This document shows positions 3,033 through 25,408 of a stretch of DNA of 32,550 bases, in pieces (the stretch's first letter is position 1; each line of letters starts with the position of its first letter). This stretch comes from Acetobacteraceae bacterium (GTDB taxonomy: Bacteria; Pseudomonadota; Alphaproteobacteria; Acetobacterales; Acetobacteraceae). The position numbers were made by a program, and so were the translations under genes. The stretch covers positions 1-32,550 of the forward strand of contig JANWXJ010000247.1 of the NCBI GenBank assembly GCA_025055335.1, written 5' to 3'. Under the pieces are notes generated by a model. It was not told where the DNA came from, did not search any database, and saw only the letters and a program-made list of their open reading frames with translations.

Positions 3033-4031
3033 ATGACCCGCAGTTCCGCCACACCCGGCGGCCCGCCCGGCCGGCGCCTCCTGCTGGCCGCGCTGGCGGC
3101 CCTTCCCGCCGCCGCCCGGGCGCAGGGCGGCTGGGCACCCTCGCGCAGCGTCGCCCTCGTCGTGCCCTTCCCCCCGGGCGGGCCGACCGACCTCGTGGCC
3201 CGGCTGCTCGCCCCGGCGCTCTCGGCCGAGCTCGGCCAGCCGGTGGTGGTGGAGAACCGCTCCGGCGCCACCGGCGTTCTCGGCACGCGCCACGTGCTTG
3301 CCCAGCCCGCCGACGGGCACACCGTCCTCGTCGCCGCCTCCGGCACCATGACGATCCTGCCGGTGCTGCAGCGCGACCTCGGCTTCGATCCGCAGGCGGA
3401 TTTCCTGCCGCTTGCGCTGATCGTGACGGTGCCCGACGTGATCGTGGTGCATCCCTCCGTGCCGGCCGAGGATCTCGCCGGGCTGATCGGCTGGATGCGC
3501 GGGCAGCCGGGAGGGGCGGCCTATGCCTCCTCGGGAGTCGGCTCCTCGGGGCATTTCGGCATGGAGCTGTTCCGCCTGCGCGCAGGCGTGCCGGCCGTGC
3601 ACGCGCCCTTCCAGGGCGCCGCCCCGGCGGTGCAGGCGGTGGTGGCGGGCACGGTGCCGCTTGCCATGATGAACGCCCCGACGGCGCTGCCCCATGTGCA
3701 GGCCGGGCGGCTCCGGGCGATCGCCGTGGCCGGCCGGCGGCGCTTCGCCCCCCTGCCCCAGGTGCCGACGACGGAGGAGCTCGGCCTCGCGGGGATCGAG
3801 ACGCAGAGCTGGACTGCCGCGCTCCTGCGCGCCGGCACCGAGCCGCGGATCGCCTCCCGACTCGAGGCCGCCTTCGCCCGGGCCGCCTCGGCCGAGGAGC
3901 CGCGCCGGCGCTTCGACGCCCTGGGCTACACGCTGGAGGCGCGCGGCCCGGCCGATCTCTCCCGGCTGATCGCCGAGGATCTCGCCCGCTGGCGCGCCGT
4001 GGGGCAGGCGGCGGGGATCCGCGCGGAGTAG
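3033..4031 (+). CDS. Bug/TctC-family periplasmic solute-binding receptor (tandem copy 2)
   Basis: Second TTT receptor, 332 aa, clearly a tandem duplicate of the preceding gene. The stretches VVPFPPGGPTD, GTRHVLAQPADGHTV, ALPHVQAGRLRAIAVAG and RFAPLP are shared almost letter for letter. The signal peptide is MTRSSATPGGPPGRRLLLAA with predicted cleavage after ARA (residue 30). Start ATG 3033 follows GGACAGGAGAGGG; a nearer ATG at 3028 is out of frame. The C-terminal halves differ more (ETQSWTAALLRAGTEP here), which fits divergence of ligand choice after duplication. It is followed 32 nt later by the deacylase-like gene, so its ligand may be that enzyme's substrate; this is inference from position. 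Confidence 0.9.
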   Translation: MTRSSATPGGPPGRRLLLAALAALPAAARAQGGWAPSRSVALVVPFPPGGPTDLVARLLAPALSAELGQPVVVENRSGATGVLGTRHVLAQPADGHTVLVAASGTMTILPVLQRDLGFDPQADFLPLALIVTVPDVIVVHPSVPAEDLAGLIGWMRGQPGGAAYASSGVGSSGHFGMELFRLRAGVPAVHAPFQGAAPAVQAVVAGTVPLAMMNAPTALPHVQAGRLRAIAVAGRRRFAPLPQVPTTEELGLAGIETQSWTAALLRAGTEPRIASRLEAAFARAASAEEPRRRFDALGYTLEARGPADLSRLIAEDLARWRAVGQAAGIRAE

Positions 4032-4063: not shown

Positions 4064-5782
4064 ATGCACGACATCGTCATCCGCGACGGCGTGATCCTCG
4101 ACGGCACGGGCGCCCCCCGCTTCTCGGGCGACGTGGCGATCGAGGGCGAGCGGATCGTGCAGGTCGGCGGCAAGGCCGGGCCGGGGCGGCGCGAGATCGA
4201 CGCCGCCGGCCGCCTCGTCACGCCCGGCTGGGTGGATGTGCACACCCACTACGACGGCCAGGCGACGTGGGATCCGCTGCTCGCCCCCTCCTCCTGGCAC
4301 GGTTCCACCACCGTGCTGATGGGCAACTGCGGGGTGGGCTTCGCCCCCTGCCGCGCCGCCGACCGCGAGGCGCTGATCGCCCTGATGGAGGGGGTGGAGG
4401 ACATCCCCGGCATCGTGCTCTCCGAGGGCCTGCCGTGGACGTGGGAGAGCTTCCCGCAATACCTCGACGCGCTCGAGCGCATGCCGCGGGTGATCGACGT
4501 GGCGGCGCAGCTTCCCCACCACCCGCTGCGGGTCTTCGTGATGGGCGAGCGCGGCCTGAACCGAGAGGCCGCGACCGAGGAGGACATCGCCGAGATGGCG
4601 CGGCTGACGGAGGAGGCGCTCCGCGCCGGCGCCTTCGGCTTCACCACCTCGCGCACCGACCAGCACAAGACGCCTTCGGGCGAGCTCGTGCCCGCCCGCT
4701 ACGCCGAGGAGCGCGAGCTGCTCGGCATCGGCCGCGCGATGGCGCGCGCCGGGCGCGGCACCTTCGGCATGCTCTCCGATTTCGAGGACGAGGCGGCCGA
4801 GTTCCGCTGGCTGCGCGAACTGGCGAAACTGACCGGCCGCCCCGCCTGGTTCCTGCTGACCGACCGCGCCTATGACCCGCAGCGCTGGGTGCGGCTGATG
4901 GCCGGGGTGCATGCGGCGCGGCGGGAGGGGCTGCCGATCGCGGCCCAGGTGGCCTGCCGCCCGGTCGGGCTGATCCTCGGGCTCCACACCTCGCTCAACC
5001 CCTTCGCGCTCCGCGAATCCTACGCCGCGCTGGACGGCCTGCCGCCGGCCGAGAAGCTCTCGCGCCTGCGCGACCCCGAGACCCGCGCGCGCATCCTGTC
5101 GGAGGACGCCTCGCCGCGGCTGCTCGAGGTGCTGCCGCCGCTCTCGCGCGCCATCGCGACGCGCTGGGACAAGATGTTCGCCCTCGGCGATCCGCCGGAC
5201 TACGAGCCGCCGCCGGAGCGGTCGCTCGCCGCGCTCGCCGCCGCCGCCGGCCAGGATCCGGCCGCCTTCACCTACGACTACCTGACGGGCGAGGACGGCG
5301 GGCGGATGATCTATTTCCCCGTGGTGAACTATGCGGCGGGGGACCTTTCGGTGGTGGAGGCGATGCTGAAGGATCCCTGCACCGTCGTCGGCCTGTCCGA
5401 CGGCGGGGCGCATTGCGGCGTGATCTGCGACGCCTCGATGCCGACCTTCATGCTCAGCCACTGGGGCCGCGACCGCACGCGCGGCCCGCGCCTGCCGCTC
5501 GAGTTCCTGGTGAAGCGGCAGACGAGCGAGACCGCCGAGTTCTTCGGCTTCGCCGACCGCGGGCGGCTCAAGCCCGGCCTCAAGGCCGACCTCAACGTGA
5601 TCGACTTCGACCGGCTGCGCATCCACCGCCCCGAGGTGGTGTTCGACCTGCCGGCGGGCGGGCGGCGGCTGATCCAGCGCGTCGAGGGCTACGACCTCAC
5701 GCTCGTCTCTGGCGTGCCGATCCTGGAGAACGACACGCCGACCGGCGCCCTGCCAGGGCGGCTGGTGCGCGCCGCCGGCTGA
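4064..5782 (+). CDS. D-aminoacylase / N-acyl-D-amino-acid deacylase-family amidohydrolase
   Basis: Metal-dependent amidohydrolase of the D-aminoacylase family, 572 aa. The start is MHDIVIRDGVILDGTG; the first metal site is the HTH at residues 60-62 (GWVDVHTHYDGQATWDP), and Cys89 in MGNCGVGFAPC matches the cysteine ligand typical of D-aminoacylases. SDGGAHCGVICD near the C terminus carries the conserved metal Asp region, and a late GLKADLNVID strand closes the small beta domain. Family members hydrolyse N-acyl-D-amino acids, and some act on other cyclic or amide substrates, so the exact substrate is open. ATG 4064 is chosen because the frame upstream overlaps the Bug gene; GGCAGGAG at 4047-4054 is the ribosome site. 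It is probably the last gene of the run that starts with E1 alpha and is followed by a hairpin at 5793-5814. Confidence 0.85.
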   Translation: MHDIVIRDGVILDGTGAPRFSGDVAIEGERIVQVGGKAGPGRREIDAAGRLVTPGWVDVHTHYDGQATWDPLLAPSSWHGSTTVLMGNCGVGFAPCRAADREALIALMEGVEDIPGIVLSEGLPWTWESFPQYLDALERMPRVIDVAAQLPHHPLRVFVMGERGLNREAATEEDIAEMARLTEEALRAGAFGFTTSRTDQHKTPSGELVPARYAEERELLGIGRAMARAGRGTFGMLSDFEDEAAEFRWLRELAKLTGRPAWFLLTDRAYDPQRWVRLMAGVHAARREGLPIAAQVACRPVGLILGLHTSLNPFALRESYAALDGLPPAEKLSRLRDPETRARILSEDASPRLLEVLPPLSRAIATRWDKMFALGDPPDYEPPPERSLAALAAAAGQDPAAFTYDYLTGEDGGRMIYFPVVNYAAGDLSVVEAMLKDPCTVVGLSDGGAHCGVICDASMPTFMLSHWGRDRTRGPRLPLEFLVKRQTSETAEFFGFADRGRLKPGLKADLNVIDFDRLRIHRPEVVFDLPAGGRRLIQRVEGYDLTLVSGVPILENDTPTGALPGRLVRAAG

Positions 5783-5792
5783 GCCTTCCGGG

Positions 5793-5814
5793 CGGGGGCG
5801 GCATTCCGCCCCCG
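5793..5814. terminator. Hairpin after the deacylase gene
   Basis: A 9-bp perfect GC stem (5793-5801 with 5806-5814) and a CATT loop lie 10 nt past the deacylase stop. No T-run follows, so this is a probable but not certain terminator separating the catabolic run from the lipid A genes. Confidence 0.5.
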
Positions 5815-5865
5815 GCTGCCGCGTGCTAGGGCCGCGCGCGTGACGGCCCCGGCCCCCCTTTCCGC

Positions 5866-6579
5866 ATGCCGAAGTCCCGCATGCTGAAGCGCGCGCTCCG
5901 CAGCGCCTTCGTCCAGGCGCTCGCCGCGCGGCTCGTCGCGGCGTATCTCGCCTTCGTGTTCCGCACCTCGCGCTGGACCCTGATCGGCGTTCCGCATGCC
6001 GAGGCGGCGGTGGCGCGCGGAGGGCGGGTCGTCATCGGCTTCTGGCACGAGCGGCTGCCGCTGATGCCCGTGGTCTGGCGCATCGCGCGGCAGCGCTATC
6101 CCGAGCTGGGGTCGCTCCGGCCGCATGTCCTCGTCTCCCGCTCGCGCGACGGGCGGTTCATCGGCGAGGTGGTGTCGCGCTTCGGGCTGTCGCTCGTGCA
6201 TGCCTCCTCCTCCTCGGGCGGGGGAGTCGGGCTGCTCGCCCTGGCGCGGCTGATCGAGCAGGGCGCGCCGGTCGCCGTCACGCCGGACGGTCCGCGCGGG
6301 CCGCGGCGCGTGGCGGCGCCCGGCATCGCCCAGCTTGCGGCCGTCTCCGGCGTGCCGGTTCTGCCCGTCGGCGCCTCCACCACGCGCCACCGCCTCCTGC
6401 CTTCCTGGGACCGGATGATGCTGCCGCTTCCCTTCGGCCAGGGCTGCGTGGCGCTCGGCCCGCTGATCGAGGTGCCGGAAGGCGGCGCCGAGGCCGCCCT
6501 GCCCGCCATCGCCGACGCCCTGACCGCCGCCTGCGACGCGGCGGATTCCTGGGTGGCGGCCGGAGGGCGCGGCGCGTGA
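5866..6579 (+). CDS. DUF374-family lysophospholipid acyltransferase-like protein
   Basis: Protein of 237 aa with a hydrophobic N-terminal segment (about residues 15-35, probably membrane-associated). The conserved DUF374 motifs are FWHERLPLMP (HE-type, about 60-69), SRSRDGRFIGEV (about 90-101) and VTPDGPRGPRR (about 138-148), corresponding to the acyltransferase blocks of LpxL/PlsC-like enzymes. DUF374 genes commonly sit beside waaA and lpxK in alphaproteobacteria, as here, and are thought to act on lipid A or its precursors; the exact acyl transfer is not established. ATG 5866 gives the longest sensible start; ATG 5881 is an alternative. Its stop overlaps the waaA start (TGATG), so the two are co-translated. 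Confidence 0.85.
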   Translation: MPKSRMLKRALRSAFVQALAARLVAAYLAFVFRTSRWTLIGVPHAEAAVARGGRVVIGFWHERLPLMPVVWRIARQRYPELGSLRPHVLVSRSRDGRFIGEVVSRFGLSLVHASSSSGGGVGLLALARLIEQGAPVAVTPDGPRGPRRVAAPGIAQLAAVSGVPVLPVGASTTRHRLLPSWDRMMLPLPFGQGCVALGPLIEVPEGGAEAALPAIADALTAACDAADSWVAAGGRGA

Positions 6580-7841
6580 TGCTGCCGCTGTGGCGCGGGG
6601 CGACGACGCTTGCGGCCCCGCTGCTCCGCCTGCATCTGCGCCGGCGCGCGGCCCGCGGCAAGGAGATGGCCGCACGCCTGCCCGAGCGCGAAGGCCATGG
6701 CGCCGCCCGCCCGCCGGGGCGGCTCCTCTGGCTGCACGCGGCGAGCGTGGGGGAGACGCAATCCGCCCTGCCGCTGCTCGACGCGCTGGCCGAGGCCGAT
6801 CCGTCCGCGCGCGTCCTGCTGACCACCGGAACCGTCACCTCCGCCCGGCTGGCGGAGGCGCGGCTGCCGCCTGCACTCGCCGGCCGGGTGCTGCACCGTT
6901 TCGCGCCCCTCGACGTGCCGGCCTGGGTGGCGCGCTTCCTCGACGGGTGGCGCCCCGATCTCGGGGTGTTCGTGGAATCCGAGCTGTGGCCGAACCTGAT
7001 CGAGGGGGCGGCGGCGCGGGGCATCCCGCTCGCGCTGGTGAACGCGCGGATGAGCGCGCGCTCGGCGCGGCTGTGGCGGGCGAGCGGTGCCGCGGGCCGG
7101 CGGCTCCTCGGGCGCTTCGGCCTGATCGCGGCCCAGGGCGAGGCCGACGCCGCCCGCTTCGCCGCCCTCGGCGCCGTGCCTGTGGTGTGGGGCAACCTCA
7201 AGCACGCGGCACCGCCGCTGCCGGCCGACGAGGCGGAGCTCGCCGCGCTCTCCGCCGCCCTCGGCGGGCGGCCGGCCTGGATCGCCGCCTCCACCCATCC
7301 GGGCGAGGAGGCGGCGGCGCTCGCGGCGCACCGCGCCCTCGCCACCCGCATCCCCGGGCTGCTGACGATCCTTGCGCCGCGGCATCCCGAGCGGGGGGAG
7401 GAGGTGGCCGCCCTTGCCCGCGATCTGCCTCTTGCCCGCCGCAGCCTCGGGGAACGGCCGGGGCCGGCCACACAGGTGCTGCTGTTCGACACCATCGGCG
7501 AGCTCGGCCTTGCCTACCGCCTCGCGCGCGTGGCCTTCGTCGGCGGGTCGCTCGTGCCGCGCGGCGGACAGAACCCGGTGGAGCCGGCGCGGCTCGGCCT
7601 GCCGGTGCTGGTCGGGCCGCGGCATGCGAACTTCGCCGAGACGGTGGCCGCGCTGCGGCAGGCCGGGGCGCTCCGCGTGCTGCCCGGGGCCGGGGCGCTG
7701 GCCGAGGCGGTTTCCGCCGTGCTAACGGATGCCGACACCCGCCGGCGGATGGCCGAGGCGGGGCTGGCCTGGGCCGGTTCTGCAGAAGGGCTTCCGGCGC
7801 GGCTGGCCGCCGCGCTGTTGCGGCTGGCGCGTCCCGACTGA
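6579..7841 (+). CDS. waaA: 3-deoxy-D-manno-octulosonic acid (Kdo) transferase
   Basis: Transfers Kdo from CMP-Kdo to the lipid A precursor at the inner face of the cytoplasmic membrane. The 420-aa length fits the family. Visible signatures are WLHAASVGE (51-59, ending in the catalytic Glu), ESELWPN (133-139), NARMSARSARLW, and the C-terminal donor-binding FVGGSLVPRGGQNPVEP. The short hydrophobic N terminus (MLPLWRGATTLAAPLLRL) is the usual membrane anchor region. ATG 6579 shares its A with the upstream TGA; GTG 6576 would add one residue. It is followed by lpxK after 30 nt, so the DUF374-waaA-lpxK block is probably one transcript. Confidence 0.95.
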   Translation: MLPLWRGATTLAAPLLRLHLRRRAARGKEMAARLPEREGHGAARPPGRLLWLHAASVGETQSALPLLDALAEADPSARVLLTTGTVTSARLAEARLPPALAGRVLHRFAPLDVPAWVARFLDGWRPDLGVFVESELWPNLIEGAAARGIPLALVNARMSARSARLWRASGAAGRRLLGRFGLIAAQGEADAARFAALGAVPVVWGNLKHAAPPLPADEAELAALSAALGGRPAWIAASTHPGEEAAALAAHRALATRIPGLLTILAPRHPERGEEVAALARDLPLARRSLGERPGPATQVLLFDTIGELGLAYRLARVAFVGGSLVPRGGQNPVEPARLGLPVLVGPRHANFAETVAALRQAGALRVLPGAGALAEAVSAVLTDADTRRRMAEAGLAWAGSAEGLPARLAAALLRLARPD

Positions 7842-9054: not shown

Positions 9055-10035
9055 TCAGTCGGCGTATTGGCCGGCGGCCTGAAGCACCGGCCGCCAGCGG
9101 TTGATCTCCGCCTCCAGGAAGGCGCGGTGGGCCTCCGGCGTCACGCGCTCGAGCGGCTCGGGCGGGCTCGCGAGGTCGTTCAGCCGCGCGACCACCGTCG
9201 GGTCCTGGATGGCCACCCGCAGCGCCCGGTTCAGCCGCTCGATCACCGGCCGCGGCGTGCCGCGGGGGGCGTACATCCCGTGCCAGATCGAGACCTCGAA
9301 GCCCGGCAGCCCGGCTTCGGCGGTGGTCGGGATGTCGGGCGCCTGCGGCAGGCGCTCGCGCGTCGCCATGGCGAGGCCGCGGATCCGCCCCTCGCGCACG
9401 AAGGGCAGGGAGGAGGTGGTCTGGTCGCAATAGACGTCGAGGTTGCCGGCGATGAGCTGCGGGAAGATCGGGCCGGAGCCGGTGAAGGAGACGGTGGTGA
9501 AGTTGATCCCGAGCTGCGCCTGCAGCAGCGTGCCGCAGAGCTGGCTCGCCGAGCCGAGGCCGGCATTGGCGAGGTTCACGCCGTCCCGACGCTCGCGCGC
9601 ATAGGCCAGGAAGTCGGCCAGGGTGGTGCCGGGGAAGTTCGGCCGCACCGAGATGATCATCGGTGTCGGCGTGACGAGGCCGAAGGGCTCGAGGTCGGTC
9701 AGCGGGTTGTAGGGCAGGCGGCGGTAGAGCGTCGGCTGGGTGGCGATGCCGATGTTGGTGTAGAGGATGGTGTGCCCGTCGGGGCGCGCCTGCACCACGC
9801 GGTGCACGCCGATCGTGCCGCCGGCGCCGCCGACGTTCTGCACCACCACGGGCTGGCCGAGGTCTCGCCCCATCACCTCCGCGAGCAGCCGCCCGACGAC
9901 ATCGGTCGGGCCGCCGGGGGCGAAGGGGATCACCATGGTGATCTGCTGCGTGGGGAAGGCCTGCGCCGCCGCCTGGCCCGCGAAGGCCGCGGCGCCGAGC
10001 AGCGCGGCGACGAGGAGTCGGCGTGTCGTCGTCAT
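9055..10035 (-). CDS. Bug/TctC-family periplasmic solute-binding receptor
   Basis: TTT receptor of 326 aa with a Sec-type signal peptide (MTTTRRLLVAALLGAAAFAG, cleavage near residue 24-25 after AAA). It has VIPFAPGGPTDVVGRLL (35-51), VVVQNVGGAGG and QARPDGHTILYTN. Two Cys (LCGTLLQ and DVYCDQTT) are unusual against the other Bug proteins here, which lack them in these places. The ribosome site AGGAGAGG is about 10 nt before the ATG. It is the last gene of the ring-cleavage/BKACE operon, 42 nt after the SDR gene, so its ligand is probably an aromatic acid or a pathway substrate; that link rests on position only. Confidence 0.9.
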   Translation of the reverse strand: MTTTRRLLVAALLGAAAFAGQAAAQAFPTQQITMVIPFAPGGPTDVVGRLLAEVMGRDLGQPVVVQNVGGAGGTIGVHRVVQARPDGHTILYTNIGIATQPTLYRRLPYNPLTDLEPFGLVTPTPMIISVRPNFPGTTLADFLAYARERRDGVNLANAGLGSASQLCGTLLQAQLGINFTTVSFTGSGPIFPQLIAGNLDVYCDQTTSSLPFVREGRIRGLAMATRERLPQAPDIPTTAEAGLPGFEVSIWHGMYAPRGTPRPVIERLNRALRVAIQDPTVVARLNDLASPPEPLERVTPEAHRAFLEAEINRWRPVLQAAGQYAD

Positions 10036-10077
10036 GTCGGGTCGTTCCTCTCCTGTTTTGTGGCGAAGCCATGGGTG

Positions 10078-10821
10078 TCAGCGGCCGCCGCCGATGTCCA
10101 CCAGCGCGCCGGTCATGTAGCCCGATTTCTCGGACAGCAGGAAGCAGACGAGTTCGGCGACCTCCTCCGGCTCGCCGGGGCGGCCGAGGGCGATGCCGGC
10201 GGTGATCTGCCTCAGGCGCTCCGCGCCTGCGCGGGCCTCGTGGCTTTCGGTGCGGATCACGCCGGGGCGCACGCAGTTGACTCGGATGCCGGCCTTGCCG
10301 ACCTCGTTCGCGAGGCCGATGGTGAAGCCGTCCACCGCCGCCTTGGCCGCCGCGTACATCACCCGGCCCGGCTGCCCGCCCAGCACCGAGGCGCGGCTGC
10401 CGATGTTGACGATGACGCCGCCCTTCCCGCCGCGGTCGGTCGCCATGCGCCGCACGGCGGCGGCCGAGCAGAACACGGTGGAGCGGAGATTGGAGTCGAC
10501 GACGCGGGCGTAGTCTGCGGGGGTGGCGTCGGCGATGCGGAAATCGGCGCTGCCGCCGGCGTTGTTGACGAGGCCCTCGAGCGGCCCGAGCCGGTCGGCC
10601 GCCTGGAAGATGGCCTCGACCGCCGCGGGGTCGGAGGCGTCGCCGCGGATCGCCTCGGCCGCGCCGCCGGCGGCGCGGATGGCGTCCACCACGGCCTTGG
10701 CCGAGGCGTCGTCGCTGCGGTAGTTGACCGCGACGGTCCAGCCATCGCGGGCCGCGGCGCGCGCAACGGCGGCGCCGATGCCGCGGCCGCCGCCGGTGAC
10801 GAGCAGGACGCCGCGGCTCAT
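10078..10821 (-). CDS. Short-chain dehydrogenase/reductase (FabG-like SDR)
   Basis: Classical NAD(P)-dependent SDR, 247 aa. The Rossmann motif TGGGRGIG is at residues 9-16, NNAG at 86-89, and the catalytic tetrad is Asn111, Ser142, Tyr156 and Lys160 (YAAAK). The C terminus ends in MTGALVDIGGGR, typical of FabG-like enzymes. The residues after the second beta strand (NYRSDD) suggest NADPH use. Its ATG overlaps the BKACE stop by 4 nt (ATGA at 10821-10818), so it is translationally coupled within the operon. It might reduce or oxidise a keto intermediate, for example a maleylacetate or beta-keto acid step; the substrate is not readable from the sequence. Confidence 0.9.
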   Translation of the reverse strand: MSRGVLLVTGGGRGIGAAVARAAARDGWTVAVNYRSDDASAKAVVDAIRAAGGAAEAIRGDASDPAAVEAIFQAADRLGPLEGLVNNAGGSADFRIADATPADYARVVDSNLRSTVFCSAAAVRRMATDRGGKGGVIVNIGSRASVLGGQPGRVMYAAAKAAVDGFTIGLANEVGKAGIRVNCVRPGVIRTESHEARAGAERLRQITAGIALGRPGEPEEVAELVCFLLSEKSGYMTGALVDIGGGR

Positions 10822-11705
10822 GCGCGCCTCCCGACCACGGCGAGTTCCTGCCGCGCCTCGGCCGCGCTCATCGGCTCGGCGCCGAAGTGGCGCAGCAGAG
10901 AGACCGCGTGCTCGACGAGCTGGGCGTTGGAGGTCGCGAGCTCGCCCTTGCGGATGTAGATGTTGTCCTCGAGCCCGACGCGCACATGGCCGCCCAGCAT
11001 CCAGGCCTGCGCGACGATCGGGAACTCGCTGCGCCCGATGCCGAAGGCGGCCCAGGGCGCGCCCTCGGGCAGCATGTCCTTGGCGTACATCAGCGTGCGG
11101 CTGTCGGCGGCGAAGCCGTAGGCGATGCCCATGCACACCTGGAACAGGCAGGGCGGCGCGAGGGTGCCATCCGCGATCAGCGCCTTGGCGAGCGCGATGT
11201 CGCCCGAGTCGAAGACCTCGAGTTCGGGGATGGTGCCGGCGGAGTAGATCAGTTCCGCCATGCGCCGCACCGACCACGGGGCGTTGATGACGGCCGCCGT
11301 CCCCGACCACATGGTGTTGAGGTCGAGGGTCGCGATCTCCGGCTTCAGGTGCAGGATGTGCTCGACCCGCCGGTCGGGCGGCAGCAGGGTGGAGCCGGGG
11401 GCGGCGGTGCGCGGATCCTCGCGCGAGGGGATGAAGCGCCCGCCCGGACCGGTGGTGAGGTTGATCACCACGTCCACGCCCGACTTCGCGATCAGGTCCA
11501 TCACCTTCTCGTAGAGGGCGATGTCCATCGAGGGGGCGCCGGTCTCGGGATCGCGCACATGGATGTGGGCGACGGCCGCCCCGGCGCGCGCGGCGTCCAC
11601 GCAGGCGGTGGCGATCTGTTCGGGGGTGATCGGAAGGTAGGGCGTCTGCTGCGGCGTGGTGATGTTGCCGGTGACGGCGCAGGTCAGGATGTAGCGGGGT
11701 TTCAT
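10818..11705 (-). CDS. Beta-keto acid cleavage enzyme (BKACE, formerly DUF849; Kce-like)
   Basis: Zinc-dependent TIM-barrel enzyme of the BKACE family, 295 aa. BKACEs condense a beta-keto acid with acetyl-CoA and split the adduct to acetoacetate plus a new acyl-CoA. Visible are the start ILTCAVTGNITTPQQTPYLP, zinc ligands His47 and His49 in HIHVRD, the NLTTGPGGRF loop (82-91), the LDLNTMWSG block and the third ligand Glu246 in VRVGLEDNIYI. The start is ATG 11705, overlapping the YciI stop (ATGA); the SDR start overlaps its own stop in the same way. The family acts on several beta-keto acids (3-keto-5-aminohexanoate, dehydrocarnitine and others). In an operon with an intradiol dioxygenase, 3-oxoadipate is an attractive but unproven substrate. 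Confidence 0.92.
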   Translation of the reverse strand: MKPRYILTCAVTGNITTPQQTPYLPITPEQIATACVDAARAGAAVAHIHVRDPETGAPSMDIALYEKVMDLIAKSGVDVVINLTTGPGGRFIPSREDPRTAAPGSTLLPPDRRVEHILHLKPEIATLDLNTMWSGTAAVINAPWSVRRMAELIYSAGTIPELEVFDSGDIALAKALIADGTLAPPCLFQVCMGIAYGFAADSRTLMYAKDMLPEGAPWAAFGIGRSEFPIVAQAWMLGGHVRVGLEDNIYIRKGELATSNAQLVEHAVSLLRHFGAEPMSAAEARQELAVVGRRA

Positions 11706-12013
11706 GCGGCCGGGGGTCCGAAGGCGGGCTTGCCGCCGGTGATGTCGAGGAAACGGTCCACGGTGACGGTGGCGAACAGCCCCGCTTCCGCGAAGGGGTC
11801 GGATGCGGCGATCGCGCGGGCGGCGGCGATGTCCGGGCAGTCGAGCACGAACACGCTGCCGATGCGGGAGCCGTCCTCCTCCGAGACGATCGGCCCCGAG
11901 AGCTTCACCGTGGCGCCGAGGCGCTTCAGGTGCTCTCGGTGCGCGGGGTAGATCGCCTCGCGGATCGCCGCACCCCCCGGCTTGTCGAGGCAGCGCACGA
12001 GGTAGAGCGGCAT
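11702..12013 (-). CDS. YciI family protein (ferredoxin-like alpha+beta fold)
   Basis: Small 103-aa protein of the YCII-related family, related in fold to muconolactone isomerases. It starts MPLYLVRCLDKPGG, has the conserved PAHREHLKRLG helix and ends with SDPFAEAGLFATVTVDRF, the typical late motif. ATG 12013 overlaps the dioxygenase stop (TGATG); GTG 12016 is an alternative one codon upstream. Its stop overlaps the BKACE start by 4 nt. In aromatic operons such proteins sometimes handle lactones or muconate derivatives, so a role just after ring cleavage is plausible but unproven. Confidence 0.85.
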   Translation of the reverse strand: MPLYLVRCLDKPGGAAIREAIYPAHREHLKRLGATVKLSGPIVSEEDGSRIGSVFVLDCPDIAAARAIAASDPFAEAGLFATVTVDRFLDITGGKPAFGPPAA

Positions 12014-12846
12014 CACGCCGCATCCTGCCGGGGGATGCGGAACTGGTAGGTGAGCTTGCCGTCCGACCAGTCGGTGACGAGGCTCGCCTTCACGCCGAAC
12101 ACCGCGTCCTCGTGCAGGTAGGGATCGCCGTCCTTGAAGATGTGGGTGATGAGGTCGCGATACCCCGGCTTCTTGATCCAGAAATGCACATGGGTCGGCC
12201 GCATCGGGCCGCGGCCCATGGCGGCCAGCACGCGGCCGACCGGCCCGTCATGCGGCACCGGATAGGAGGCGGGGCAGATGGTGAAGCAGTGCACGCGCCC
12301 GTCCGGGCCGGTGACGAAGCGGCCGCGCATGAAATGCGCCTCGCCGTCGCCGATCTGGCTGTCGTAGTAGCCCTCGGCGCTGGTGTGCCAGATGTCCACC
12401 TGCGCGCCTTCCAGCGGCTTGCCGTCCTGGTCGCAGACCGTCACGTCGATCTCGAGCGGCGTGCCGGGCGCGCCGGGCGAGAGGTTGTCGCCGTTCTTCA
12501 TCCGCGGCGGGTTCTCGCGGTGGAAGGGGCCGAGCACGGTGGTGTCGGACACGCTCGCGTCGTGCCGGTTGGCGATGGCGTCCACCAGCATCGAGACGCC
12601 GAGCACGTCGGACAGCAGGATCACCTCCTGCCGCTTGTCGTCGCACCAGCGGCCGAGCTCGGTGAGGAAGGCGATGCCCTGCTCCCACTCCTGCGGCGTC
12701 AGGCGCACCTCCTTCACGAAGGCGTGGAGGTGGCGGATCAGCGCCGTCATCACCTCGGCCACGCGCGGGTCGGCGTCGGGGCGGATGCGGGCGATGACCG
12801 CGTCCGTCAGGTTGTCCTCGGTGTAGGTGATGTGGCCGTCGGCCAT
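12013..12846 (-). CDS. Intradiol ring-cleavage dioxygenase (hydroxyquinol/catechol 1,2-dioxygenase type)
   Basis: Fe(III) intradiol dioxygenase, 277 aa, opening an ortho-dihydroxy ring between the hydroxyls. The N-terminal helical dimer domain (about 1-100) is followed by the catalytic beta sandwich. Iron ligands are recognisable as Tyr161 (EGYYDSQ), Tyr195 (PASYPVPHDGP), His219 and His221 (RPTHVHFWI). The pattern and length fit hydroxyquinol 1,2-dioxygenases (product maleylacetate) at least as well as catechol 1,2-dioxygenases (product cis,cis-muconate); I favour hydroxyquinol. Its neighbours are an MDR oxidoreductase 12 nt upstream, and YciI and BKACE downstream with overlapping starts. GGAGGACC precedes the ATG. 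Catechol cannot be excluded. Confidence 0.9.
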   Translation of the reverse strand: MADGHITYTEDNLTDAVIARIRPDADPRVAEVMTALIRHLHAFVKEVRLTPQEWEQGIAFLTELGRWCDDKRQEVILLSDVLGVSMLVDAIANRHDASVSDTTVLGPFHRENPPRMKNGDNLSPGAPGTPLEIDVTVCDQDGKPLEGAQVDIWHTSAEGYYDSQIGDGEAHFMRGRFVTGPDGRVHCFTICPASYPVPHDGPVGRVLAAMGRGPMRPTHVHFWIKKPGYRDLITHIFKDGDPYLHEDAVFGVKASLVTDWSDGKLTYQFRIPRQDAA

Positions 12847-12858
12847 GATGGTCCTCCC

Positions 12859-13881
12859 TCAGCCCATCGTCAGGATGACGCGGCCGCGCGTGCCGTTCGC
12901 GACCGCGGCGTAGGCCTCGCGCGCCTCGTCGAGGGTGTAGGCCTCGGCGATCCTCGGCGCGGGCAGGGCGCCGCTCTCGAAACCCCGGGCAAGGCGCTCC
13001 ATCACTTCCGCGCAGGCGACGACGCCGCGCTTCAGGCTGTCTATGCCGAGAAGCCGCGCCTCCTTGCGGTAGAACGGGATCAGTTCGAGCGACACCGCCT
13101 CGCCCGGGCTGCCGGCGATGGCGACGTAGCGGCCGCGGAAGCCGAGCGCGCCGACGCCGGCGGAGAAGAGGGCGGGCGTGCCGACGGTGTCGTACACCAC
13201 GTCGAAGCCCTTGCCGCCGGTGAGCGCGGCGAGCGCGGCCGGAAGGTCGCCTGCCGCGGTGAGATCGAGCGGCTCGGCGCCGACTTCCGCCGCGACGGAG
13301 TCCGCGGGCAGCGGCCCGCGGCAGCAGGCGACGACGCGCGCGCCGTGCCAGCGGGCGAGTGCTGCGACCGCCCCGCCGACGCCGCCCGTGGCGCCGAACA
13401 CCAGCACCGTCTCTCCGGGCTGCAGCAGGGCGGCCTCGTGCAGGCCGAGCCAGGCGGTGACGTAGTTGACGCCGACCGCGCCCGCCTCCTCGAAGGACAG
13501 GCGCTCCGGCTTGCGGCGCAGCGCGGCGGCGGGAACCACCACGTGGCGGGCGTGCGTGCCGTCCCGCGTGTAGCCGATGTCGCCGCCCGTCCCCCAGACC
13601 TCGGTGCCGATCCACTCGGCGGGCCCGGCGACGACGGTGCCGGCGAAGTCACGGCCGGGCGTGCGCGGCGGGACCGTCTGGCGCATGCGGCCGGCGACGT
13701 TCTTCACGTCCGAAGGGTTGATCGAGGCGGCGTGCACGCGCACCAGCGCCTCGTCGGGGCCGGGCCTCGGCGTCGGCACGTCGAGGGTTTCCAGCACCTC
13801 CGGGCCGCCGAACGCCGCGAAGCGCAGCGCGCGCGTGCGCCCGGCATGAAGCCGCCCCTCGACCTCTCCCGCCACGTCCAT
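12859..13881 (-). CDS. Zinc-independent MDR-family oxidoreductase (quinone oxidoreductase-like)
   Basis: Medium-chain dehydrogenase/reductase of 340 aa. The GroES-like N-terminal domain has INPSDVKN and GRDFAGTVV (77-85) in place of the zinc-ligand GHE motif, so no catalytic zinc is expected. The NAD(P)-binding motif is FGATGGVGGAVAAL (about 162-175). The C terminus (LDEAREAYAAVANGTRGRVIL) is typical of quinone oxidoreductase-like proteins. It is the first gene of the minus-strand operon, directly downstream of the promoter and LacI-type operator. It could reduce a quinone form of the ring substrate (hydroxybenzoquinone to hydroxyquinol) or the C=C bond of maleylacetate; both are inferences. 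ATG 13881 is preceded by GGCGGCGGAG. Confidence 0.88.
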   Translation of the reverse strand: MDVAGEVEGRLHAGRTRALRFAAFGGPEVLETLDVPTPRPGPDEALVRVHAASINPSDVKNVAGRMRQTVPPRTPGRDFAGTVVAGPAEWIGTEVWGTGGDIGYTRDGTHARHVVVPAAALRRKPERLSFEEAGAVGVNYVTAWLGLHEAALLQPGETVLVFGATGGVGGAVAALARWHGARVVACCRGPLPADSVAAEVGAEPLDLTAAGDLPAALAALTGGKGFDVVYDTVGTPALFSAGVGALGFRGRYVAIAGSPGEAVSLELIPFYRKEARLLGIDSLKRGVVACAEVMERLARGFESGALPAPRIAEAYTLDEAREAYAAVANGTRGRVILTMG

Positions 13882-14014: not shown

Positions 14015-15040
14015 ATGGAACGGCCGGGCCGCCCCACCATCTCCGACGTCGCGCGGCTTGCCGGCGTGCATGCCTCGACGGTCTCGCGCGCGCTCGACCC
14101 CTCGGCACGCCACCGCATCAGCAGGGCGGTGGCCGAGCGCGTCGCCGCCGCGGCCGAGCAGCTCGGCTACCGGCCCTCCGCGCTGGCCGCCGGGCTGCGC
14201 TCGGGGCGCAGCCATACCGTCGGCGTGCTGGTGCCGGACCTGACGAACCCGGTCTTCCCGCCGATCGTGCAGGCGATCGAGGCGGCGCTGGCCCGCGCAG
14301 GCTACGTCACGCTGCTCGCCAGCACCGAGGCCGATGCGGCGAAGGAGGCGCTGCTGATCCGCCGCATGGCGGCGCAGGGCGCGGACGGCATCATCCTCGC
14401 CTCGGCGGCGACGGGTTCGCCTGCGCCGGGGGCGGCGGCACGGCTCGGCCTGCCGCTCGTGCTGGTGAACCGCCGGCTGCCCGGGGCCGAGCTGCCCGCG
14501 GTGGTGAGCGAGGACGCCGCCGGCATCGGGCTTGCCGTGCGGCATCTGCTGGCGCTCGGGCATCGCCGGATCGCCCATCTCGGCGGACCCTCCGGCGTGG
14601 CGACGGCGGCGGACCGGCTGCGCGGCGTGCGGGCGGCGCTGCGCGCCGAGGGGCTCGCTCCCGTCGCGGTCGAGCGGGCCGCGGCCTACACACGCCAGGC
14701 CGGCGCCGAGGCGACCCGCGCGTTGTTGCGGGTGCGGCGCGGCGGCTTCACCGCGATCGTCGCGGCGAACGACCTTCTCGCCCTCGGCGCCTACGACGCG
14801 CTGCGCGAGGTGGGGCTGCGCATCCCGGCCGACATCTCGGTCACCGGCTTCAACGACATGCCGATGGCCGACCTCGTGGATCCGCCGCTCACCACCGTCC
14901 GCATCCAGCACGCCGCCATGGGCGAGGCGGCGGCGGAGGCGATGCTGGCGAGGCTGCGCGGCGAGGCGGGGCCGGGCACGGTGCGTCTGCCGGCGGCGCT
15001 GGTCGTGCGCGCCTCCGCCGCCCCGCCTCAGGCCGGGTAG
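14015..15040 (+). CDS. LacI-family transcriptional regulator
   Basis: 341 aa. The DNA-binding helix-turn-helix is at residues 8-27 (TISDVARLAGVHASTVSRAL), followed by the hinge helix (YRPSALAAGLRSGRS) that inserts in the minor groove of CG-centred operators. The rest is a periplasmic-binding-protein-like effector domain: VGVLVPDLTNPVFP, DGIILAS, VLVNRRLPG and the late VTGFNDMPMADLVDPPLTTV motif. It is divergent from the MDR-dioxygenase-BKACE operon with a LacI-type operator between, so it is most likely the repressor of that operon, released by a pathway substrate. Its last 13 nt overlap the end of the converging Rieske small-subunit gene. Confidence 0.93.
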   Translation: MERPGRPTISDVARLAGVHASTVSRALDPSARHRISRAVAERVAAAAEQLGYRPSALAAGLRSGRSHTVGVLVPDLTNPVFPPIVQAIEAALARAGYVTLLASTEADAAKEALLIRRMAAQGADGIILASAATGSPAPGAAARLGLPLVLVNRRLPGAELPAVVSEDAAGIGLAVRHLLALGHRRIAHLGGPSGVATAADRLRGVRAALRAEGLAPVAVERAAAYTRQAGAEATRALLRVRRGGFTAIVAANDLLALGAYDALREVGLRIPADISVTGFNDMPMADLVDPPLTTVRIQHAAMGEAAAEAMLARLRGEAGPGTVRLPAALVVRASAAPPQAG

Positions 15041-15510
15041 ATCAGGCTGTTCGGGATCATCTCGGAATCGAACACCACCACGCGCTCGCGGTAGCGCAGC
15101 CGCCCCTCGTCGCGCACCACGACGTCATGCGCCACCCCGGCGAGCACGATCTCGCTCTGCTTGTCCACGAGCGTCTGCACCATCAGGATGTTGGAGCGGA
15201 GCCGGACGCCTTCGCCTTCCGGCCCGACGATCCTGAGGCCCGAGACGAAGCGGCGGTAGTGTCGCGGGGCGTACATCTGCGTGCGCGTCAGCCCCGTCAC
15301 CCGGTCCTCGAGCATGCCGCGGCTCTCGGCGTAGATGGTGCAGAGGGTGCGGCCCGCCTCGAAGTTCTCGCGCGGGATGACGCGGTAGGTGCAGGCCTCG
15401 GTGAAGAAGCCGGGCCATTCGGACAGGCGCAGGTCGTCGAGGCATTCGAGATAGGCGAAGGTCAGCGCCTCGATCTCCTCGCGCGCGATGGCGGGCGGGA
15501 TCGCGTTCAC
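15028..15510 (-). CDS. nagH: Ring-hydroxylating oxygenase small (beta) subunit, salicylate 5-hydroxylase-like
   Basis: 160-aa SnoaL/NTF2-fold beta subunit of a Rieske oxygenase. The motifs are ALTFAYLECLDDLRLSEWPG, FFTEACTYRVIPRENFEAG, ESRGMLEDRV and the closing RERVVVFDSEMIPNSLIYPA. The beta subunit stabilises the alpha3beta3 assembly and has no metal. The start is GTG 15510, overlapping the alpha-subunit stop (GTGA), which gives the normal length; extending the frame to 15759 would overlap the alpha gene. NagH and AndAd-type subunits look most similar from memory. The tail overlaps the converging lacI-type gene by 13 nt. Confidence 0.85.
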   Translation of the reverse strand: MNAIPPAIAREEIEALTFAYLECLDDLRLSEWPGFFTEACTYRVIPRENFEAGRTLCTIYAESRGMLEDRVTGLTRTQMYAPRHYRRFVSGLRIVGPEGEGVRLRSNILMVQTLVDKQSEIVLAGVAHDVVVRDEGRLRYRERVVVFDSEMIPNSLIYPA

Positions 15511-16754
15511 AGCCCCATCACCTTCCGCCAGTAGCGGTACATGCCGCGGATCGCCGTCTCGGTCACCATGTGCTGGGTGTCGCCGATCTCGCGCCCGCCC
15601 ATCGTCACCAGCGCCGAATCCCAGGGTGCCGGGGCGATGCCCTGCTGGCTCATCTCGATCACCTCGCCGTCGTCGGCCGAGACGAAGCCCGCCGGCCCGA
15701 ACAGGTTGGCCTGGCGGGTGCGCCGGAGGCGCATCTCGGGCGGATCGTCGGCGTAGCACCAGTGCGTCCAGACGAAGTCGAACCCCGAAGGGCCCTTCGG
15801 GATGATGTGCCGCGTCGTCAGGCTGTTGATCTGCTGCTGCAGGATCACGGAGGGGAAGACGGTGATCATGCCGACCGTCTCCTCCCCCGGGAACTCCTTC
15901 ACCACGTCCATGATGCGCGGGTCGGCGAGCTTCAGGTCGGCCTGGAAGGTGCGCATGTCGGCCGTCACGTCGTTCAGCTCCTGCTCGCCCTTGCGGCTGA
16001 TCAGGATGCCGTGGCGGCCTTCCTCGTCCATCTCGACGGCGGATTTCTGGTCGGCGCGGAACAGTCCGAAGGTCACGAAGAACACGTGCAGCAGCCCCGC
16101 GTGGTAGGGGTCCTTGATGTTCTCCTGCATCAGCTTCCAGTTGGCCGGGATGTGCTGGCGGTTGTAGCCGAGCACGGCGAGCTTCCGCCCGTCATACACC
16201 CGCGTGTAGTGGCGCCAGAACTTCTCGCCCAGGTATTCGCGGAAGGGCGGTGTCGCGTCGCTGAAGGTGGCCCACACGACGCCGTTCACCACCTCGACGC
16301 GGAGCCGGTTCAGCCCCCACGCCTTGGGGTCGAAATCCGGCGGCATGCCGCCCTGGCGGCGCACGCCGCGGCGGAACGGCACGCCGATCAGGCTGCCGTC
16401 CAGCGCATAGGCCCATTGGTGGTAGGGGCAGATCAGCTGCTCGCTGCGCCCGGCCCGCGCCTGGCAGAACTTCACGCCGCGGTGGCGGCAGCGGTTCTCG
16501 ACCACGCTGATGGTGTCGGGCGCCGAGCGCACCATGATCACCGGCCTCTCGCCGAGCGTGGTGGTGCGCCAGTCGCCGACCTCGGGCACCTCCGCCTCGA
16601 GCCCCACGTAGAGCCAGTGCGGGCCGTACCAGATGCGCTCCAGTTCGCGGGCGTAGATCTCGGGGTCGGTGTAGACCCAGTAGGGGATGCGGCCGTCGGC
16701 ATCCTCGGGCCAGACCCGGCCCGGCGTTCCGGCCGCGGTGATGCTGCCGTCCAT
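15507..16754 (-). CDS. nagG: Rieske ring-hydroxylating oxygenase large (alpha) subunit, salicylate 5-hydroxylase-like
   Basis: 415-aa alpha subunit carrying the Rieske [2Fe-2S] ligands Cys89, His91, Cys109 and His112 (CRH and CPYH). The mononuclear iron site is in QENIKDPYHAGLLH, with bridging Asp215 and ligands His218 and His223. LFGPAGFVSADDGEVIE supplies the third-ligand region, and the C terminus is TETAIRGMYRYWRKVMGL. The overall motif run (WYGPHWLYVGLEAEVP, GVPFRRGV, IPANWKLMQEN, VTFGLFRAD) closely resembles salicylate 5-hydroxylase NagG, which makes gentisate; an anthranilate dioxygenase-type relative is the main alternative. A gentisate dioxygenase gene upstream on the same strand supports the salicylate reading. 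No ferredoxin or reductase gene is present in the window, so electrons must come from elsewhere. Confidence 0.88.
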   Translation of the reverse strand: MDGSITAAGTPGRVWPEDADGRIPYWVYTDPEIYARELERIWYGPHWLYVGLEAEVPEVGDWRTTTLGERPVIMVRSAPDTISVVENRCRHRGVKFCQARAGRSEQLICPYHQWAYALDGSLIGVPFRRGVRRQGGMPPDFDPKAWGLNRLRVEVVNGVVWATFSDATPPFREYLGEKFWRHYTRVYDGRKLAVLGYNRQHIPANWKLMQENIKDPYHAGLLHVFFVTFGLFRADQKSAVEMDEEGRHGILISRKGEQELNDVTADMRTFQADLKLADPRIMDVVKEFPGEETVGMITVFPSVILQQQINSLTTRHIIPKGPSGFDFVWTHWCYADDPPEMRLRRTRQANLFGPAGFVSADDGEVIEMSQQGIAPAPWDSALVTMGGREIGDTQHMVTETAIRGMYRYWRKVMGL

Positions 16755-16801
16755 TTTTCCCTCCCCTGCGAGCGGCGCGCCTGCCCCTTGGACGCCCGCG
16801 C

Positions 16802-16831
16802 GTGATACGGCCGGCTATTGTTCTATGTCAA
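16802..16831 (-). promoter_or_regulatory. Candidate promoter of the Rieske oxygenase genes, overlapping the iclR stop
   Basis: On the minus strand a consensus -35 TTGACA (16826-16831) overlaps the stop codon of the IclR gene, and a -10-like TATCAC lies 18 bp downstream (16802-16807), 48 bp before the alpha-subunit ATG. The 10-bp palindrome AAATGCATTT (16830-16839) touches the -35 box and could be a regulator site. Confidence 0.5.
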
Positions 16832-17610
16832 ATGCATTTTGCTTCGTGCAAAGTGCCGAAGCCCAGCGCCGCCCCCGCCATTCTCGCCGCCTGCCGCAGC
16901 ACGGCCTCGACGGCCGGATCCTCCGCCGGCGGCGAGGTTGCGGCGGCGATCGTCGTCATCACCAGCGCAAGGCGGCCTTGCGCGTCGAACACCGGGGCGG
17001 CGGCCGCCCTGAGGCCCGGGATCAGGCTCGAGTCCGCCCGCGCGATCCCCTCCGCCCGGACACAGGCGGCCTCCTGGTCGGCATCGCCGCCGCGCGCGGC
17101 CGCCTCCCGCCGGGCGGCGGCCCGGATCTCCTCGGCATCGCCGAAGGCGAGGAACACCCGCCCCGTCGCCGATCCCAGCACCGGCAGGACCGAACCGAGC
17201 CCGAGTGTGGTGAGCAGCGCCGGCCGCCCCGGAAGCCAGCGCACCACGGTCGGGCCGGCGTCGCCCCACACGGCGAGAAGGACGGTCCGGCCCGTCTCGG
17301 CCACCAGCCGGGCGGCGGCCCGTTCGGCCTCCGCCAGGGGATCGAGCCGCGCGAGCGCCGCAAGGCCGAGGCGCAGCACCCGCGGCCCGAGATCGTACAG
17401 CGCCCCGGCCGCATCCCGCCGGGCCATCCCGGCGGCGATCAGGCTGGCGAGGTAGCGGTGCGCCTGGCTTGCCGAGATGCCGGCGGCACGGGCGATCTCG
17501 GAGAGCGAGGCCGCCCGCCCCGCCGCGGCCAGCGCCTCGAGCACGCGCAGCGCCGTGCCGACCGAGCCGATGCCCCGCCGGGCGCCCGCGGGGCGGGGCG
17601 GCCGCGTCAT
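16828..17610 (-). CDS. IclR-family transcriptional regulator
   Basis: 260 aa. The N-terminal winged helix-turn-helix is at about residues 15-75 (GTALRVLEALAAAG, then LSEIARAAGISASQAHRYL), and the C-terminal GAF-like effector domain includes GSVLPVLGSATGRVFLAF and the late SLIPGLRAAAAPVFDAQG motif. IclR proteins often control aromatic catabolism and bind pathway acids. It lies 13 nt after the gentisate dioxygenase gene and 73 nt before the Rieske genes on the same strand, so it is embedded in the operon it probably regulates. Confidence 0.9.
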   Translation of the reverse strand: MTRPPRPAGARRGIGSVGTALRVLEALAAAGRAASLSEIARAAGISASQAHRYLASLIAAGMARRDAAGALYDLGPRVLRLGLAALARLDPLAEAERAAARLVAETGRTVLLAVWGDAGPTVVRWLPGRPALLTTLGLGSVLPVLGSATGRVFLAFGDAEEIRAAARREAAARGGDADQEAACVRAEGIARADSSLIPGLRAAAAPVFDAQGRLALVMTTIAAATSPPAEDPAVEAVLRQAARMAGAALGFGTLHEAKCI

Positions 17611-17623
17611 CCGCGCGGTCGGG

Positions 17624-18655
17624 TCAGCCCCGCCCCTCCCGCCAGATGTTCAGCCTCTCCTGCGCCGGGCGGTCGGAGAGGGTGAACAGCACGCTCTCCT
17701 CGGCGGCCTCGTGGCGGAAGCGCGTCCAGTTCGGCACGATGAACACGTCCTTCGGACCCCAGTCGAACCACTGGCCGCCGATCTCGGTGCGGCCGCGGCC
17801 CTCGACGCACACCACGATCTGCCCGTCGGTCTGGCGCGCCGGGGCGCCGGCGAAGCCCTTCGGCAGCAGCGACAGGATCCCGCCCATGGTGGGCGTGGGC
17901 CAGCCGCCGGTGCGGGGATGGGCGTAGCGCAGGCGGAAGCCGTGCACCGCGTCATGCGCCGCATGCCGCGCGATCCGCGCCAGCGCCTCGCGCGAGCGGT
18001 CGTAGCGGTAGTTGATGATGGGCGAGTTCGGGCTGTCGCTCTCCGGCTCGAGCGGCAGCATGGAGGCGGCGTAGCGCCCGAGGCTGTCGTCCTGCGGCTT
18101 CTTCTGCGGGTAGATCTCCTCCTCGTGGTGCTCGAGGAAGGCGCATTCGAAGAAGTTCACGATCGGCAGGTCGAGGCCGTCGAGCCAGATCACGGGCTCC
18201 GTGCCGGTGTGCCCGTGGTCGTGCCAGGTCCAGGAGGGGGTGATGACGAAATCGCCCGGGTGCATGGCCGTGCGCTCGCCGTCCACCGCGGTGTAGGCGC
18301 CCTCGCCCTCCAGGATGAAGCGGATCGCCCCCGCCACGTGGCGATGCGCGCGCGCGACTTCGCCCGGCAGGATGAGCTGCAGCCCGGCGTAGATGGTGGG
18401 TGTCGCGCGGGACTGGCCGCGATAGGCCGGGTTCTCGAGCACCAGCACGCGGCGCTCCGCCTCCTCTGCGGTGATGACGCGGCCGGCCTCGAGCAGCAGC
18501 GGCTTCACCTCGTTCCAGCGCCACAGCTTGGCGCGCGCCGAGGATTTCGGCTCGCGCGGGACGATGGTCTTCAGCACCTCCCACAGCGGGGCGAGGTCGT
18601 CGCGGCCGATGCGGTCGTAGTATTCCTGCCGGGCCGGCGGGATCGGGTTGTCCAT
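17624..18655 (-). CDS. gtdA: Gentisate 1,2-dioxygenase
   Basis: Bicupin Fe(II) dioxygenase, 343 aa, cleaving gentisate (2,5-dihydroxybenzoate) to maleylpyruvate. The iron ligands are His104 and His106 (ARAHRHVAGAIRF) and His145 (SWTWHDHGH), at the same positions known for E. coli-type gentisate dioxygenase. Other family marks are LWRWNEVKPLLLEAG (44-58) and WLDGLDLPIVNFFE. The second cupin (TMGGILSLLPKGF, then DVFIVPNWTRFRHEA) lacks a full metal site, as usual. Start ATG 18655 is preceded by GGGAAGGAG. It is the first gene of the gtdA-iclR-Rieske run and would consume the Rieske enzyme's product. Maleylpyruvate isomerase and fumarylpyruvate hydrolase are not in the window. Confidence 0.93.
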   Translation of the reverse strand: MDNPIPPARQEYYDRIGRDDLAPLWEVLKTIVPREPKSSARAKLWRWNEVKPLLLEAGRVITAEEAERRVLVLENPAYRGQSRATPTIYAGLQLILPGEVARAHRHVAGAIRFILEGEGAYTAVDGERTAMHPGDFVITPSWTWHDHGHTGTEPVIWLDGLDLPIVNFFECAFLEHHEEEIYPQKKPQDDSLGRYAASMLPLEPESDSPNSPIINYRYDRSREALARIARHAAHDAVHGFRLRYAHPRTGGWPTPTMGGILSLLPKGFAGAPARQTDGQIVVCVEGRGRTEIGGQWFDWGPKDVFIVPNWTRFRHEAAEESVLFTLSDRPAQERLNIWREGRG

Positions 18656-18765: not shown

Positions 18766-19737
18766 ATGCACCGACGCGCCCTCCTCGCCGCCCCCGCACT
18801 GCTGCTTGCGCCGCGGCTCGCCGCTGCGCAGGGCGGCTATCCGTCGCGCCAGGTCGCGATCGTCGTCGGCGTCGCGCCGGGCGGCACCGCCGACATGGCG
18901 GCGCGCATCCTGGCCGAAGGCTTCCCCCGGCGCTTCGGCGACCGCTTCCCCTTCGTGGTCGAGAACCGCCCGGGTGCGGCGACGCAGATCGGCACCGCCC
19001 ATGTCGCGCGACAGCCGGCGGACGGCCACACGCTGCTGGTGGCCGGCGCGCCTTTCGCCATCAATCCCGCCCTGTTCCCGGCACTCCCCTACGACACCGC
19101 GCGCGATTTCGCCGCCATCACGCTGCTCGTGCGCAACGGCCTGTTCCTCGTGGTGCCCGCCGCCTCGCCGGTGCGCGACATGGCGGGGTTCCTCGCGCTC
19201 GCACGCAGCCGCAACGGGCTGAACATGGCCTCGGCCGGCAACGCCTCGATGAGCCACATGGCGCTCGAGCTGCTCGCTTCGCGCAGCGGCGCGCCGCTCG
19301 TGCATGTGCCGTTCCGCGGCTCGGGGCTCGCCATGCCGGCGCTGCTCGGCGGCCAGGTGGACGCGATGTTCGAGAACCCCTCGACCTGCCTGCCGCTGGT
19401 GCGGGAGGGGCGGCTGCGCGCCATCGCCTTCACCGGCGCCGAGCGCAGCGCCGCCGCGCCGGAGGTGCCGACGGTCGCCGAGGCCGCGGGGCTGCCGGGC
19501 TTCCTCGCGCTCAACTTCTTCGGGCTGTGGGCGCGCAGCGGCACGCCGGAGACGATCCTGGACGCGATCCACGCCGCGACGGTGGAGATCCTCGGCCGCC
19601 CCGAGGTGGTGGACCGCTTCGCCCGCGACGGGGTGGAGCCCGCGCCGATGCCGCGCGCGGCCTTCGCCGGGTTCGTCGCGGAGCAGATGCGCGTCTGGGC
19701 CGAGGTGGTGCGCGAGCGCGGCATTCAGCCCGGCTGA
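18766..19737 (+). CDS. Bug/TctC-family periplasmic solute-binding receptor
   Basis: TTT receptor of 323 aa, divergent from gentisate dioxygenase with a 110-nt gap. The signal peptide is MHRRALLAAPALLLAPRLAA with cleavage near AAAQ (20-22). It has VVGVAPGGTADMAARIL in place of the commoner VPFPPGGPTD, then VVENRPGAATQIGTAHVARQ, QPADGHTLL and VPTVAEAAGLPGF. Divergence in the first ligand loop marks it as a different subgroup from the tandem pair. It may feed the gentisate/salicylate module across the shared upstream region, or the LysR operon it faces. The last 13 nt overlap the end of the converging lysR-type gene. Confidence 0.9.
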   Translation: MHRRALLAAPALLLAPRLAAAQGGYPSRQVAIVVGVAPGGTADMAARILAEGFPRRFGDRFPFVVENRPGAATQIGTAHVARQPADGHTLLVAGAPFAINPALFPALPYDTARDFAAITLLVRNGLFLVVPAASPVRDMAGFLALARSRNGLNMASAGNASMSHMALELLASRSGAPLVHVPFRGSGLAMPALLGGQVDAMFENPSTCLPLVREGRLRAIAFTGAERSAAAPEVPTVAEAAGLPGFLALNFFGLWARSGTPETILDAIHAATVEILGRPEVVDRFARDGVEPAPMPRAAFAGFVAEQMRVWAEVVRERGIQPG

Positions 19738-25341: not shown

Positions 25342-25408
25342 CGCGAGGCGGGTGACAGCGCCGCGCCAGCGTCGCATCCTCTGCCGGAACCAGCCCGGGA
25401 GACACCGC

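Follow-up and report, generated by a model that had tools for sequence, protein, structure and literature searches.

In this study, we analysed a stretch of DNA of 32,550 nucleotides from an Acetobacteraceae bacterium, referred to here as the window, in which six co-directional genes on the minus strand lie in the order MDR-HQD-YciI-BKACE-SDR-Bug, running from 13881 to 9055 (Table 1). An initial annotation had described these genes as one tightly coupled block, and this description was borne out with regard to strand, position and spacing; the names it gave to the genes also agree with our domain scans. Three of the junctions overlap by 1–4 bases: HQD and YciI share the sequence TGATG, and the YciI/BKACE and BKACE/SDR junctions each consist of a 4-bp ATGA overlap. 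The MDR stop codon is followed by a 12-nt gap, within which GGGAGGA is found upstream of HQD, and SDR and Bug are separated by about 40 nt. The divergently oriented LacI gene probably encodes the regulator of the operon, and the Bug receptor probably binds the imported substrate. None of the genes within the operon encodes a hydroxyquinol-forming enzyme.

Table 1. Genes of the operon and the adjoining regulator, with positions in the window
Feature	Position	Strand	Domains and remarks
MDR, Zn-independent, quinone oxidoreductase/enoyl-reductase type	12859..13881	-	PF00107/PF08240/PF13602; proposed maleylacetate reductase
HQD, hydroxyquinol 1,2-dioxygenase-like intradiol dioxygenase	12013..12846	-	PF04444+PF00775; best PDB match 1tmx
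YciI-family protein, accessory	11702..12016	-	PF03795; nearest solved relative TftG
BKACE, beta-keto acid cleavage enzyme (DUF849)	10818..11705	-	PF05853, 309 bits
SDR oxidoreductase	10078..10821	-	PF13561
Bug/TctC periplasmic receptor	9055..10035	-	PF03401
LacI-family regulator, divergent from operon	14015..15040	+	PF00356/PF13377

Next to the operon, the minus strand at 15028-18655 carries genes for a gentisate 1,2-dioxygenase that scores above its curated cut-off, for both the alpha and the beta subunit of a Rieske oxygenase similar to AndAc/AndAd, and for an IclR-like protein. Together these probably hydroxylate a ring of the salicylate or anthranilate type, with gentisate as the product. 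A plus-strand frame at approximately 23895-24431, with genes for an alpha/beta hydrolase and an aldolase-like protein close by, looks by eye like a 3-hydroxyanthranilate 3,4-dioxygenase. Bug-type receptor genes are found four times in this one 32 kb stretch (3033-4031, 9055-10035, 18766-19737 and 25352-26377), and no TctAB partners were noticed.

Recurrence of the cluster

A survey of genomes for the same gene set, which had been suggested when the operon was first annotated, recovered the full block in about 14 other genomes. These are of the Roseomonas/Falsiroseomonas type, and the contigs around their BKACE homologues show the arrangement LacI/MDR-HQD-(YciI)-BKACE-(SDR)-Bug, which we call type A. 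A second arrangement, HQD-SDR-BKACE-MDR (type B), is present in five other Acetobacteraceae and also in two genomes from other alphaproteobacterial families (L226 and L227). The divergent LacI gene is kept with type A and with several type B clusters. In a third arrangement (type C), found at three loci (L112-L114), HQD and BKACE are linked, and in two of these (L113 and L114) the BKACE gene directly follows HQD and a true iron-dependent maleylacetate reductase (MAR) is encoded within the cluster in the order MAR...HQD-BKACE, while the contig of the third breaks upstream. The best PDB matches of the type C MAR are 3jzd and then 3w5s and 3hl0, both of which are named maleylacetate reductase. 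In a sample of 200 Acetobacteraceae genomes, a BKACE was detected at E<=1e-60 in 35, and 12 of these 35 have a copy no more than about 2 kb away from an HQD gene, which indicates that the grouping is not due to chance. At L113 (9165-12392), GFO/IDH/MocA, xylose-isomerase-like and DUF4432 genes come after the hydroxyquinol cluster with MAR and BKACE, a hint that its source may be linked to sugars or glycosides.

The dioxygenase and the proposed maleylacetate reductase

The dioxygenase had been described as hydroxyquinol/catechol-type, and the comparison with solved structures supports a ring of the hydroxyquinol type: HQD matches the hydroxyquinol 1,2-dioxygenase 1tmx with 261 bits, whereas the best catechol enzyme reaches 123 bits. 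The protein contains the Dioxygenase_N and Dioxygenase_C domains and the Tyr/Tyr/His/His ligand motifs, and is closest to known hydroxyquinol enzymes. The top PDB match of the YciI protein is TftG (4lbh; E 1.3e-8), the 5-chloro-2-hydroxyhydroquinone dehydrochlorinase of the chlorohydroxyquinol route, and this closest solved relative is a separate line of evidence that points to hydroxyquinol chemistry. The YciI protein may handle hydroxyquinol or its quinone, and it has no representative in the clusters L008, L009, L013, L067 and L073. At locus L141 (G072:C77 5320-6174), a type A-like dioxygenase gene was reported by the search with one in-frame TAG. Weak HQD matches (26-31%) beside BKACE genes in Emcibacteraceae and Kordiimonadaceae were set aside, as they represent distant intradiol-type sequences in other contexts.

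The reductase of the operon belongs to the MDR family and falls outside the Fe-ADH family (PF00465) of the MARs, so that its proposed likeness to MAR is one of function. The GHE zinc motif is absent from the protein and GRDFAG stands in its place. Members of the MDR family of the quinone oxidoreductase/enoyl-reductase type reduce C=C bonds adjoining carbonyls, an activity that fits maleylacetate. We compared the neighbours of 104 HQD loci, comprising those of Acetobacteraceae and of the type A contigs (two pairs of which represent one and the same contig each), and counted an MDR at >=38% identity to that of the window. An MDR without a MAR was found at 22 loci and a MAR without an MDR at 13, and no locus had both; as the loci are related, these counts do not represent independent events. 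BKACE occurs together with MDR at 19 loci, with MAR at two, and alone at two, both of which are cut by contig ends, so that every untruncated HQD-BKACE cluster carries one reductase, either MDR or MAR. Among loci lacking BKACE, 11 have a MAR alone and three an MDR alone. PcaI/PcaJ-like and PcaF-like genes were each found at one of the 104 loci, and 64 loci, mostly of a more distant HQD group, have no MDR, MAR, BKACE or Pca-type neighbours. No MAR was detected at E<=1e-60 in 9 of 12 genomes with MDR-type clusters; these include the source genome, for which absences are only suggestive as the assembly (2.9 Mb, 256 contigs) is 84% complete. In G167, an exception, the MAR adjoins a second HQD gene. 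The two clear Fe-ADHs of the source genome are only 27-29% identical to MAR.

The three loci with MDR alone are those of L142, L143 and L144 (about 5200-7520), in three genomes of one genus, where a single uninterrupted open reading frame encodes both MDR and HQD, with the ADH_zinc_N domain as well as Dioxygenase_N/C, and no BKACE gene is nearby. The linkers between the two parts differ in length, and one of them consists of APTHASTR-like repeats. These fusions support the idea that the MDR acts in the pathway of HQD. It had been proposed that either the MDR or the SDR protein takes the place of the iron-type enzyme. The mutual exclusion of MAR and MDR and the fusions speak for the former; the SDR gene is present in most clusters, but L003/L124 and the fused ones lack it, which makes the MDR rather than the SDR the likely maleylacetate reductase of the operon.

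In tree tests, a single HQD clade for types A, B and the fused proteins was not rejected (p-AU 0.605), whereas the union of all BKACE-linked types (A, B and C) in one HQD lineage was (p-AU 0.0004). This suggests that the link between HQD and BKACE probably has at least two origins, one with MDR and one with MAR. The BKACEs of the three types could still form one clade (p-AU 0.26), and as a single HQD-linked BKACE clade survives this test, we do not claim that BKACE was recruited to HQD independently.

The BKACE and its proposed substrate

The BKACE passes the PF05853 family model (309 bits, cut-off 24.8). It has been reported that some members of this family act on beta-ketoadipate (PMC4922564 Table 7), and the NCBIfam model NF053568 describes a 3-oxoadipate:acetyl-CoA acetyltransferase. 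We propose the same reaction for the BKACE of the operon, which however belongs to a different subfamily, as it scores 161.7 bits against NF053568 (equivalog cut-off 350) and 236.4 bits against Kce (cut-off 382). Among BKACEs of solved structure, BsfD from the biosynthesis of flavophos (9zsc) is the closest to it. A second BKACE gene of the source genome (L165 7903-8829, contig C165), with SDR, Bug, flavin-monooxygenase-like and amidohydrolase-like neighbours, scores above the cut-off of NF053538 (3,5-dioxohexanoate:acetyl-CoA acetone transferase).

A comparison of the active site with characterised BKACEs had been called for, and gave a divided answer. The Zn ligands H48, H50 and E247 (BsfD numbering) are conserved, as is R91, but the Tyr found at the catalytic position of characterised BKACEs is replaced by Phe. 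BsfD likewise has Phe166 where a Tyr is thought to be catalytic, and its Arg91 has been said to have no counterpart in other characterised BKACEs (PMC12871164). We found Phe at this position in all 100 close-subclade rows examined (100/100) and Arg91 in most of the subclade, so that across a large, mainly proteobacterial group the supposedly universal catalytic Tyr is Phe and Arg91 is common. Phe166 is thus uninformative as a mark of BsfD chemistry. Arg91 could be the residue that holds the distal carboxylate of 3-oxoadipate.

Taken together, we consider it probable that the operon serves the breakdown of hydroxyquinol by an alternative lower pathway. The gene content, its conservation, the fact that the two reductases exclude each other and the fusions are observed, and from these we infer every substrate and reaction. 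According to this model, HQD would open hydroxyquinol to maleylacetate, and the Zn-independent MDR would reduce the C=C bond of maleylacetate in place of the iron-dependent MAR, giving 3-oxoadipate. The BKACE would then convert 3-oxoadipate and acetyl-CoA to succinyl-CoA and acetoacetate in one step, replacing PcaIJ plus PcaF. The placing of the BKACE after the reduction, as first proposed, is supported by its linkage to HQD and by the MAR-bearing clusters at L113 and L114, where MAR would supply 3-oxoadipate to the BKACE. Several points speak against the model: the BKACE scores below the cut-offs of NF053568 and Kce, it has Phe at the supposed catalytic position and its closest solved relative does not cleave, the fused MDR-HQD genes have no BKACE in their vicinity, and an enzyme that would form hydroxyquinol is absent from the operon.

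The same annotation had envisaged an ending free of CoA-transferases, which does not hold for the host: a search of the genome for both types of gene found PcaF on contig C60, at 714 bits against a cut-off of 605, while contigs C32 and C179 carry two CoA-transferase pairs of the PcaIJ/Sco type. Among 19 cluster-bearing genomes checked, PcaF is present in 16 and a PcaI-like subunit in 18, and at the thresholds used both are missing only in G535. PcaF may serve other pathways in those genomes. As the host and most of its relatives keep PcaF and PcaIJ-type genes, the BKACE need not be essential. Acetoacetate itself requires a CoA-transferase or a synthetase for its activation, and the need for this step would thus be moved rather than removed.

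The PcaF and CoA-transferases of the genome could instead finish 3-oxoadipate themselves, with the BKACE catalysing a BsfD-like C-acetylation without cleavage or acting on another beta-keto acid. While the Phe at the catalytic position and the BsfD-like loop would be in line with this, the Phe is found throughout the large subclade and is not specific to BsfD chemistry, and the BKACE is tightly linked with HQD in three gene orders; we regard this explanation as unlikely. It is somewhat less probable still that maleylacetate is the direct substrate of the BKACE, yielding acetoacetate and a C4 unsaturated acyl-CoA, and that the MDR reduces something else. Maleylacetate is indeed a beta-keto acid with a CO-CH2-COOH end, and BKACEs are promiscuous (PMC4922564). 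However, 3-oxoadipate is the likelier of the two substrates given that one reductase accompanies HQD and BKACE in every untruncated cluster, the MDR is fused to HQD itself in some genomes, and the MAR of type C would make 3-oxoadipate. The last explanation, that a substituted (e.g. chlorinated or alkylated) hydroxyquinol gives rise to substituted chain acids and, through the BKACE, to a substituted succinyl-CoA, is equally improbable, since the resemblance of YciI to TftG is set against many clusters that lack YciI and a window in which no dehalogenation genes were noticed. We retain 3-oxoadipate as the likeliest BKACE substrate.

Relation to known systems

The replacement of PcaIJ/PcaF by a BKACE is not a new idea. 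In the protocatechuate (pca) operons of Methylobacterium, which lack pcaIJ/F, a DUF849/kce BKACE has been proposed to split beta-ketoadipate with acetyl-CoA in their place (PMC8963497, PMC12379598). Those operons belong to the protocatechuate branch (pcaGH, pcaB) and have no MDR for MAR, and the BKACEs are likened here by their proposed role. The initial annotation knew of no established operon with the present combination; in view of Methylobacterium this does not apply to the BKACE shortcut as such but does to its hydroxyquinol version, as in a search mostly outside subscription papers we found no literature linking hydroxyquinol with BKACE/DUF849. The same search found none on an MDR-type maleylacetate reductase. 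The hydroxyquinol version and the MDR-type reductase are thus what is new here, as predictions from sequence comparison. Classical hydroxyquinol clusters, with an Fe-dependent MAR of the GraC/TftE type, share cleavage to maleylacetate followed by reduction, and a YciI/TftG-type accessory protein, but in the operon described here the reductase is of the MDR family and a BKACE is added. With BsfD, the BKACE has in common a loop of about 20 residues with Arg91 and the Phe166 position; however, the product of BsfD is a phosphonate, formed by transfer of acetyl with no cleavage step (PMC12871164), whereas this BKACE is encoded in a catabolic operon.

We lean, with slightly less confidence than for the pathway model above, towards a complete alternative route that recurs in Acetobacteraceae and is also present in other Alphaproteobacteria, in which the MDR, sometimes fused to HQD, would be an unrelated replacement of MAR and a BKACE of the Phe subclade would split 3-oxoadipate without PcaIJ/PcaF. 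If this is true, the BKACE shortcut, which has until now been proposed for the protocatechuate branch, would extend to that of hydroxyquinol. Maleylacetate reductases would then be predicted to comprise a second family, unrelated to the first, which is directly assayable and for which the fused form is the obvious test protein. In addition, some members of the large BKACE subclade that has Phe in the position of the supposed catalytic Tyr would be given a substrate.
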